The notes under the pieces: generated by a model
Told to the model about the DNA's origin: nothing
Database searches by the model: none
The model's input: only the letters and a program-made list of their open reading frames with translations
NCBI RefSeq assembly: GCF_000620065.1
Contig: NZ_JHVI01000027.1
Span: 1-42,664 of the forward strand
Reading direction: 5' to 3'
DNA length: 42,664 bases
Origin: Meiothermus cerbereus DSM 11376
GTDB taxonomy: Bacteria > Deinococcota > Deinococci > Deinococcales > Thermaceae
Program-made: the position numbers and the translations under genes
In this document: positions 2,652 to 34,999 of the stretch, one piece after another
Numbering within the stretch: the stretch's first letter is position 1
How the letters are laid out: each line of letters begins with the position of its first letter

Positions 2652-2873
2652 TTATTCTTCCTCGGCCTCGAGCCGCTTCAGCAGCTCTTTCAGCTCTGCT
2701 TTTTGCTGGCCTTCCTCCATCCCATCGGCCAGTTTTTCGATAGCCAGTCGCACCACCTCGGACTTGGAGACCAGCTGCTCGGGGCTAGAAAGCTCGTAGG
2801 CCAGCCTGGTCAGGAGCGCGTCCTGATCATCGCTGATGACTACCTGTAAACGCTTTTTCTCCTTCTTGGGCAT
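2652..2873 (-). CDS. Ribbon-helix-helix (CopG/Arc-like) regulator
   Basis: This 73-residue protein has the ribbon-helix-helix layout. A basic start (MPKKEKKR) is followed by the short beta strand LQVVISDD (~9-16), helix 1 (~17-28), a turn, and helix 2 beginning SKSEVVRLAIEKLA (~37-50). The C-terminal tail is acidic and likely coiled (KAELKELLKRLEAEEE). Such proteins bind DNA as dimers through the strand pair. No toxin gene lies next to it, so an antitoxin role is not supported. It points away from murA, and the 184 bases between the two genes hold four copies of the hexamer GAGTAT/ATACTC, which are candidate operators for this protein. Target and function are inferred. Confidence 0.8.
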   Translation of the reverse strand: MPKKEKKRLQVVISDDQDALLTRLAYELSSPEQLVSKSEVVRLAIEKLADGMEEGQQKAELKELLKRLEAEEE

Positions 2874-2897
2874 AACCTGTAAACCCTGGCGCCAGAC

Positions 2898-2921
2898 GAG
2901 TATGGTAACGGTAAAATACTC
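2898..2921. promoter_or_regulatory. Candidate operator 1 (GAGTAT-N12-ATACTC)
   Basis: An inverted pair of hexamers, GAGTAT (2898-2903) and ATACTC (2916-2921), extends to ACGAGTAT/ATACTCGT and lies 25 bases upstream of the RHH gene start. The same hexamers recur at the murA promoter, suggesting one regulator binds both. Inference from sequence symmetry only. Confidence 0.5.
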
Positions 2922-2962
2922 GTATGCGTTTCTGACTAAACTTTAGCACGTTACGTTTGTGC

Positions 2963-2991
2963 TTGACAATACGGCACTAACTTACTATACT
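2963..2991 (+). promoter_or_regulatory. murA promoter, near-consensus
   Basis: A perfect TTGACA (2963-2968), a 17-base spacer and TATACT (2986-2991) make this the best housekeeping-sigma promoter seen in the window. It would start a leader of about 60 bases ahead of murA. Confidence 0.85.
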
Positions 2992-3003
2992 CATAGTGAG
3001 TAT
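2987..3003. promoter_or_regulatory. Candidate operator 2 over the murA -10 box and start site
   Basis: A perfect 7-bp inverted repeat, ATACTCA-TAG-TGAGTAT, begins inside the -10 box and runs over the expected transcription start. A protein bound here would block murA transcription. The arms contain the same hexamer as operator 1, which lies 71 bp upstream measured from ATACTC to ATACTC. The likely binder is the adjacent RHH protein, by inference. Confidence 0.6.
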
Positions 3004-3057
3004 CATGTGTAAGATACGCAACGATAGCCAGATGCACCCAGGAGATGAGCCCTGCGT

Positions 3058-4341
3058 ATGAACAGAACCCTTACCATTCACGGCGGTGTCCCCCTTAGCG
3101 GTGAACTGCGCATTTTTCCTGCCAAAAATTCAGCGCTCAAACTCATGGCGGCCAGCATTCTGACCGAGGAGCCCGTTACCCTTACGGAGGTTCCCCGCTT
3201 GCGTGATATTGACGTCCTGCTCGAGCTTCTGGGCCACCTGGGCACCCGCCACGCCTGGGAAGGCCGTACCCTGCACCTCCACACGCCCGAAATTCGCTCT
3301 ACCCACGCGCCCTTCGAACTGGTCAGCAAGATGCGGGCCAGCTTCAACGTGCTGGGGGCCCTGGCTGCACGGGCTGGCGAAGGCACCGTACCCCTACCCG
3401 GGGGCTGCAATTTTGCCGAGCGTCCGGTAGACCAGCACATCAAGGCCCTGCGTGGCCTGGGCTTCGAGATCAGCACCGAGATTACCGAGCAAGGTGTGGC
3501 CTATACGGCCCGTCGCACCAAACCCGCCTCTGGCCGGGTGGTCTACGATCTGCCTACCCTGGGCGGCACCGAGCAGGCCCTGATGGCGGCAGCCCTGGGG
3601 GGTGAAGCCGTGCTGGTCAACACCCCACAGGAACCCGAAATTGTAGATCTTTGCAACTTCCTCACCATGATGGGGGCCGAGATTAGAGGCATCGGGAGCA
3701 GCATCCTGCATATCAAGGGCAAGCCCCGCCTGCGTGGAGGGCGCTACAGCGTAATCCCCGACCGCATCGAAGCGGGCACCTACCTGTTTGCCGCCGCGGC
3801 CACCCGGGGTTCCATCACCCTTACCAATGTGGAGCCGTTCCACATGGACGCCGTGCTGGACAAGCTCATTCAGTCGGGCCACAAAATCACCACCGGCAAA
3901 GACTGGATTACCCTGGAAGCCATCCCCAACCCCCAGCCCTTCAACCTCGAGGCCCGCGAGTACCCCGGCTTCATCACCGACCTGCAACCCCCTGCCACGG
4001 CCTACCTGGCTACCGTACACGGCACCTCGCTGGTCTCCGACCGGGTCTACCCCGACCGCTTTACCCACGCCAGTGAGCTGGCCCGCATGGGGGCCGAAGT
4101 TACCCTAAAAGACCGCACCCTGGTAATTCAGGGCCGCCGACTGACCGGCGCGGCAGTAGAAGCCCGCGACATTCGGGCCGGAGGGGGCCTGATTATCGCT
4201 GCCCTGGCGGCTGAGGGCGATAGCCACATCACCGGGTTGCAGTACATCGAACGCGGCTACGACGACATCGCAAACCGCCTGCGAAGCCTGGGCGCCCAGG
4301 TGGGGGTGCAGCACCCCGAGCTGGCGCTGGCGGCGGACTGA
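3058..4341 (+). CDS. murA: UDP-N-acetylglucosamine 1-carboxyvinyltransferase
   Basis: MurA transfers enolpyruvate from PEP to UDP-GlcNAc, the first committed step of peptidoglycan synthesis, in the cytoplasm. The 427-residue length fits the family. Lys23-Asn24 in PAKNSALKLMAAS form the substrate-binding motif. The catalytic loop PLPGGCNFAERPVDQHI carries Cys117, the residue attacked by fosfomycin. Later blocks include RIEAGTYLFAAAATRG and TDLQPPATAYLATVHGTS, and the C-terminal RAGGGLIIAALAAEG is also typical. An AGGAG lies 13 bases before the ATG, which is a long spacing. The gene has a strong promoter overlapped by a palindrome, so repression by the neighbouring RHH protein is plausible. A weak hairpin plus T run follows before prfB. 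Confidence 0.96.
   Translation: MNRTLTIHGGVPLSGELRIFPAKNSALKLMAASILTEEPVTLTEVPRLRDIDVLLELLGHLGTRHAWEGRTLHLHTPEIRSTHAPFELVSKMRASFNVLGALAARAGEGTVPLPGGCNFAERPVDQHIKALRGLGFEISTEITEQGVAYTARRTKPASGRVVYDLPTLGGTEQALMAAALGGEAVLVNTPQEPEIVDLCNFLTMMGAEIRGIGSSILHIKGKPRLRGGRYSVIPDRIEAGTYLFAAAATRGSITLTNVEPFHMDAVLDKLIQSGHKITTGKDWITLEAIPNPQPFNLEAREYPGFITDLQPPATAYLATVHGTSLVSDRVYPDRFTHASELARMGAEVTLKDRTLVIQGRRLTGAAVEARDIRAGGGLIIAALAAEGDSHITGLQYIERGYDDIANRLRSLGAQVGVQHPELALAAD

Positions 4342-4450: not shown

Positions 4451-5552
<1,102 letters not shown>

Positions 5553-32260: not shown

Positions 32261-34999
<2,739 letters not shown>

Follow-up and report, generated by a model that had tools for sequence, protein, structure and literature searches.

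The ribbon-helix-helix (RHH) protein MetJ represses methionine biosynthesis from 8-bp met boxes, with S-adenosylmethionine as its ligand. In the peptidoglycan pathway, the first committed step is that of murA, D-Ala-D-Ala is the product of ddl, and murF joins this dipeptide to UDP-MurNAc-tripeptide; ddl and murF belong to the Sigma-M regulon. Most descriptions of how cytoplasmic peptidoglycan synthesis is controlled concern the enzymes or stress sigma factors. Sigma-M controls several stages of this synthesis in Bacillus subtilis, the GntR-family protein DdlR of Clostridioides difficile is a dedicated regulator that binds the ddl promoter, and CodY reaches murA, murC and murD in Lactococcus lactis (PMC13204101). 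The omega protein (ParB-pSM19035) recognizes short contiguous boxes in either orientation, several of which are needed in a row (PMC9499535). A search of the open-access literature found no RHH-type regulator described for murA, ddl or murF, and no dedicated regulator of these genes in the bacterial group studied here. A sequence-only reading of the present locus took murA to be usually constitutive, which is partly right but has to accommodate the effect of CodY on murA reported in L. lactis (PMC13204101).

The window analyzed here is a stretch of 42,664 nucleotides from Meiothermus cerbereus DSM 11376 in which murA is divergent from the gene of a 73-aa RHH-like regulator. The regulator gene stands alone, with a convergent RNA methyltransferase-like ORF on one side and the divergent murA on the other. 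A prfB-like gene lies 3' of murA and contains an apparent classic programmed +1 frameshift site at 4494-4503 (TATCTTTGAC). The features of the region are as follows.

2652-2873, minus strand: gene of the 73-aa RHH-like regulator, orthologue of TTHA0139 (PDB 5YTP/5YTQ), from the ORF, its orthologues, the PDB match and Foldseek
2897-2903, plus strand: arm 1 of the upstream pair, CGAGTAT, 20-bp spacing kept in most Meiothermus only
2916-2922, minus strand: arm 2 of the upstream pair, ATACTCG, 20-bp spacing kept in most Meiothermus only
2940-2969, minus strand: putative promoter of the RHH gene, TTGTCA-18-TAAAGT with a TG extension, from a consensus scan
2963-2968, plus strand: murA -35 box TTGACA, from a consensus scan, invariant in 18 Meiothermus-group loci
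2986-2991, plus strand: murA -10 box TATACT, overlapped by box E1, 91% mean column conservation
2988-2993, minus strand: array box E1, TACTCA (TGAGTA on the minus strand), 93% column conservation and matrix
2997-3002, plus strand: array box E2, TGAGTA, 93% column conservation
3006-3011, plus strand: array box E3, TGTGTA, missed by the sequence-only reading, 100% columns in Meiothermus and found in all five families
3015-3020, minus strand: array box E4, TACGCA (TGCGTA on the minus strand), 3-bp gap from E3, TRCNCA in most orthologues
3058-4341, plus strand: murA (UDP-GlcNAc 1-carboxyvinyltransferase), PF00275 at E 1.7e-76, divergent from the RHH-like gene

The murA promoter, TTGACA-17-TATACT at 2963-2991, agrees with the consensus at 11 of 12 positions (consensus scan). 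Within the putative promoter of the RHH gene, positions 2939-2948 are 91% conserved in the Meiothermus-group alignment. On the other strand the murA -35 sequence TTGACAA (2963-2969) is TTGTCAA, which would serve the RHH gene as its -35, so that the two divergent promoters would overlap. Four copies of GAGTAT/ATACTC had been noted within 106 bp and all are confirmed, at 2898-2903 (plus), 2916-2921 (minus), 2987-2992 (minus) and 2998-3003 (plus). As the 42.7-kb stretch holds 12 copies against 5.8 expected, four of them within 106 bp are far from chance. The motif ATACTCA-TAG-TGAGTAT, described as lying across the -10 box of the near-consensus murA promoter, is exact at 2987-3003, and elsewhere in the 3.03-Mb genome a single site was found at up to 3 mismatches, with 3 mismatches. 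These hexamers had been read as two inverted GAGTAT pairs. The hexamers are real, but two equivalent pairs were rejected since pitch and conservation differ between them, and the functional unit appears to be an array of two to four boxes at a 9-bp pitch. Of the two pairs, 2987/2998 has its boxes at this pitch and makes up one half of a longer array, and 2898/2916 faces the other way, with boxes 20 bp apart, inside the leader of the RHH gene.

What is conserved is a row of 6-bp boxes, TGNGYA on one strand or the other, that recur with a 9-bp period from the murA -10 box into the leader. In M. cerbereus the boxes start at 2988 (TACTCA), 2997 (TGAGTA), 3006 (TGTGTA) and 3015 (TACGCA), separated by gaps of 3 bp; the sequence-only reading had caught the first two. 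Among 18 Meiothermus-group sequences, the columns of E1-E3 are 93-100% conserved against 65-72% in the 3-bp gaps, and those of E4 stand at 72% because of drift among TRCNCA variants. The most widely conserved part is the E3-E4 core, TGTGTA-NNN-TRCNCA. The absence of conserved half-sites in relatives that keep the RHH-murA order had been named as the refuting observation; in these relatives the array boxes are conserved. When four boxes were scored at pitches of 6-15 bp, 174 positions exceeded 20 bits at a pitch of 9 bp, as against 0-3 at any other pitch. Because such sites had guided the choice of loci, some of them redundant, this count measures the pitch and not the frequency in genomes. One of 2.05 million simulated positions exceeded 20 bits in the same scoring. 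The murA promoter thus bears a tandem array in the usual sense (at least two short boxes at a fixed pitch at the target promoter), with two to four boxes every 9 bp. By its sequence the array is modular, and in murA arrays of the T. parvatiensis type precisely one 9-bp unit is missing.

The array is not confined to murA, which had been put forward as the sole target: ddl and murF carry it as well. In a blind test, a pattern derived from murA boxes E2-E4 only was searched in 50 genomes with a reversed control. It was present in 42 of the 50 genomes, with two matches in all for the control, and 18 of its places were away from murA, eight at ddl and three at murF. When ddl loci were fetched and their starts scored, the array was found in all 22 non-Thermus Thermaceae, in one of them (L097) ~226 bp upstream, and in none of the eight Thermus ddl loci. 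The murF start is the best-scoring place of its locus in 29 of 30 Thermaceae loci, 27 of the 30 being above 10 bits, and Thermus murF arrays are weak. Placement of the Thermus ddl in the murF operon was considered and rejected, as the two genes are far apart in Thermus. In M. cerbereus itself the murF boxes lie just before murF, which starts at 32435 (contig C18, 32392-32424), and the ddl array (L100) is weak, at 18.2 bits, and non-coding. In the other families, the ddl array tops its locus in 11 of 19 cases (9 of 10 in family f5 alone, mostly as non-coding TGTGTA-NNN-TACACA cores), and murF arrays exceed 14 bits in 14 of 20 genomes; family f2 has the array at neither gene and family f3 at murF only, with none at ddl.

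The ddl array covers the first ddl codons in many Meiothermus, from which one could argue that the boxes there arose by chance or under coding constraint. This is scarcely credible: the arrays are non-coding in the ddl loci of f5 and in L096 and L098-L101, so the ddl array is not a coding artefact, and the non-coding array of L097, the specificity for the 9-bp pitch and the nearly empty reversed-pattern control speak against it too. In L096 and L098-L101 the ddl start codon seems to have moved downstream, with the old start region and its boxes kept as non-coding DNA.

A sequence model of the array gave 76 matches at E < 0.04 in the 50 genomes, 75 of which are at murA, ddl or murF. The model had been trained on ddl and murF sites too, so it supports the narrowness of the regulon, and the blind evidence is that of the murA-only pattern. 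Several array-like matches were set aside: in the polA coding sequence (L075, L271, L273, L274), in a pilus gene (L079), in a sensor-like coding region (L082), at a signal-peptide start in Thermus (L267-L269) and at low-score sites with 2 mismatches in the M. cerbereus genome. A four-box array of 33 bits was seen at L078:2432-2464 (G011:C170), upstream of a DUF692-like ORF divergent from pyrD; this ORF is a possible further target, in one genome only. A three-box match at L080:2489-2512 (G002:C2), also in one genome only, lies between the genes of a glmS-like and an SLH-domain protein and is cell-wall related.

The upstream pair (2897-2922) reads CGAGTAT-N12-ATACTCG, its box starts are 20 bp apart, and it is situated downstream of the putative RHH promoter. 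It is not generally conserved: it is limited to a Meiothermus subclade, and the locus comparison showed that it is not kept in L011, L015-L018 or Thermus. To judge from its sequence and position it may serve autoregulation of the RHH gene, in that subclade alone. In L028/L064 both arms have changed to match (TGAGTAT-ATACTCA). Such joint changes, together with the inverted repeats in both leaders, are what would be expected if the conserved sequence acted as RNA, with the leaders of murA and the RHH gene forming a hairpin or riboswitch. This explanation is very improbable, given that Rfam returned no family match, that box 1 is reverse at murA and forward at murF, that conservation extends to the 9-bp pitch but not to pairing, and that E1 overlaps the -10 box and so falls outside the transcript. 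The change of orientation between genes is accounted for by the box matrix T-G-N-G-Y-A, which is near the palindrome TGYRCA and reads similarly from either strand.

The 73-aa protein matches the TTHA0139 structures of the PDB at E 2.3e-36 over 70 positions, and the top Foldseek matches of its predicted structure are the same entries (5ytq/5ytp, E 2.5e-5). The Foldseek match was obtained with a model built on a more diverse alignment; an earlier model (pLDDT 76) matched nothing. The full-length match and the murA neighborhood identify the protein as the orthologue of TTHA0139 of T. thermophilus HB8, Thermus members being ~74-83% identical and encoded at the same place beside murA. Structures 5YTP and 5YTQ are of the L34A variant only, and no paper on TTHA0139 was found in the open-access literature. 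The Pfam RHH_1 match, over residues 8-49, is sub-threshold (E 1.5, 9.3 bits against a cut-off of 20.5; E 0.055 for the best family member), as is the NCBIfam aCcr1 match. Since no profile matches above its curated threshold, the protein is called RHH-like or RHH-type, a tentative label drawn from weak profile matches and the sequence pattern. In the model, helices are predicted at residues 15-28 and 37-51, after an extended KRLQVVI; a monomer was modelled, and the ribbon strand forms only in the dimer. This predicted order of elements is consistent with RHH. Across the five families KRLQVVI and SKSEVVRL hardly vary. No ligand domain was recognized in the 73 residues. A type II antitoxin (ParD-like) was considered and rejected, as no toxin gene adjoins, and no homologue of the protein was found on plasmids.

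Orthologues of the protein are present in 49 of 50 Thermaceae genomes and, in the phylum set, in 106 of 111 genomes and 31 of 31 genera. Of the five phylum-set genomes in which it was not found, four are also without a murA match and one, 65% complete, shows just a fragment of murA, so that no genome truly lacking the regulator was found among the 111. The divergent neighbor of the RHH-like gene is murA throughout the Thermaceae loci compared and at nearly all of the loci taken from four further families; in the latter the core TGTGTA-NNN-TRCNCA is generally found 3' of the murA promoter. Sequence comparison thus bears out the proposal of a dedicated RHH-type regulator at the murA promoter, gene order and boxes being kept together in Thermaceae and related families. 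A few loci separate the pair: in G058 (L195) a transposon-like insertion of ~2.4 kb lies between the RHH gene and murA with the boxes intact on the murA side, and in G110 and G100 the two genes are on different contigs with arrays still upstream of murA. As the boxes stay with murA in these three genomes, murA is identified as the target.

The same loci indicate that linkage is not strictly required, and neither ddl nor murF is linked to the RHH gene. The arrays might therefore be bound by some other transcription factor with its gene elsewhere, the RHH gene being a linked neighbor. Such a factor is quite unlikely: in almost all genomes of the five families the RHH gene adjoins murA, the predicted DNA-contacting strand is nearly invariant, as expected for a fixed operator, and there is the precedent of an RHH protein, ParB-pSM19035, that binds tandem short boxes in either orientation (PMC9499535). 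It is nonetheless by linkage only that the boxes are provisionally assigned to the 73-aa protein.

We thus consider it probable, with good confidence, that murA, ddl and murF form a small peptidoglycan-precursor regulon repressed by the 73-aa protein, which would act as an RHH-type repressor on tandem arrays. The arrays, their 9-bp pitch and conservation, the target set and the gene linkage can be read from the compared sequences; from them we infer that the protein binds the boxes and represses, each 6-bp box probably being bound by one RHH dimer. At the 9-bp pitch, two to four such dimers would bind cooperatively side by side over the -10 box, the start site and the first ~25 transcribed bases, and RNA polymerase could then neither initiate nor leave. 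Entry into precursor synthesis (murA) and the D-Ala-D-Ala branch (ddl, murF) would in this way be set together. With no recognizable ligand domain, release could be guessed to proceed through the protein level or a partner of the C-terminal helix. About as likely as not is a broader version, an ancient, lineage-wide and dedicated repressor that couples murA with ddl/murF through the modular array and senses the state of wall precursors or wall stress through a partner.

Repression is plausible from box position: at murA and ddl the boxes overlap the -10 box and extend downstream, and at murF they follow a TANACT-like -10, positions at which repressors typically bind. An activator or dual regulator acting on the same regulon through the same protein is unlikely on this ground, and a murA promoter at 11/12 consensus needs no activator, even though the RHH protein AmrZ both activates and represses (PMC3325190) and murA expression is needed for growth.

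If the proposed repressor is real, a DNA-binding switch for murA, ddl and murF would offer a genetically simple handle on wall precursor supply, in Thermus and Meiothermus that are manipulable and with a regulator orthologue already crystallized. It would also assign a testable function to an uncharacterized, extremely conserved protein family whose hosts are mostly heat-loving bacteria.

Compared with regulators of the same genes, the proposed repressor differs from DdlR by its protein family and by its link to murA and murF, which is not reported for DdlR, from Sigma-M, a stress sigma factor that turns genes on and not an operator-binding protein, and from CodY, a global nutrient regulator and not a dedicated one. 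Its likeness to omega (ParB-pSM19035) would lie in a small RHH-type DNA-binding dimer and short boxes in either orientation; compared by box layout, omega uses contiguous 7-bp heptads and serves plasmid functions, whereas here 6-bp boxes at a 9-bp pitch lie at chromosomal cell-wall genes. With MetJ it would share RHH dimers on tandem near-palindromic boxes over the promoters of unlinked genes of one biosynthetic pathway, MetJ being a larger protein with a ligand and the present one a 73-aa protein without a recognized ligand site.
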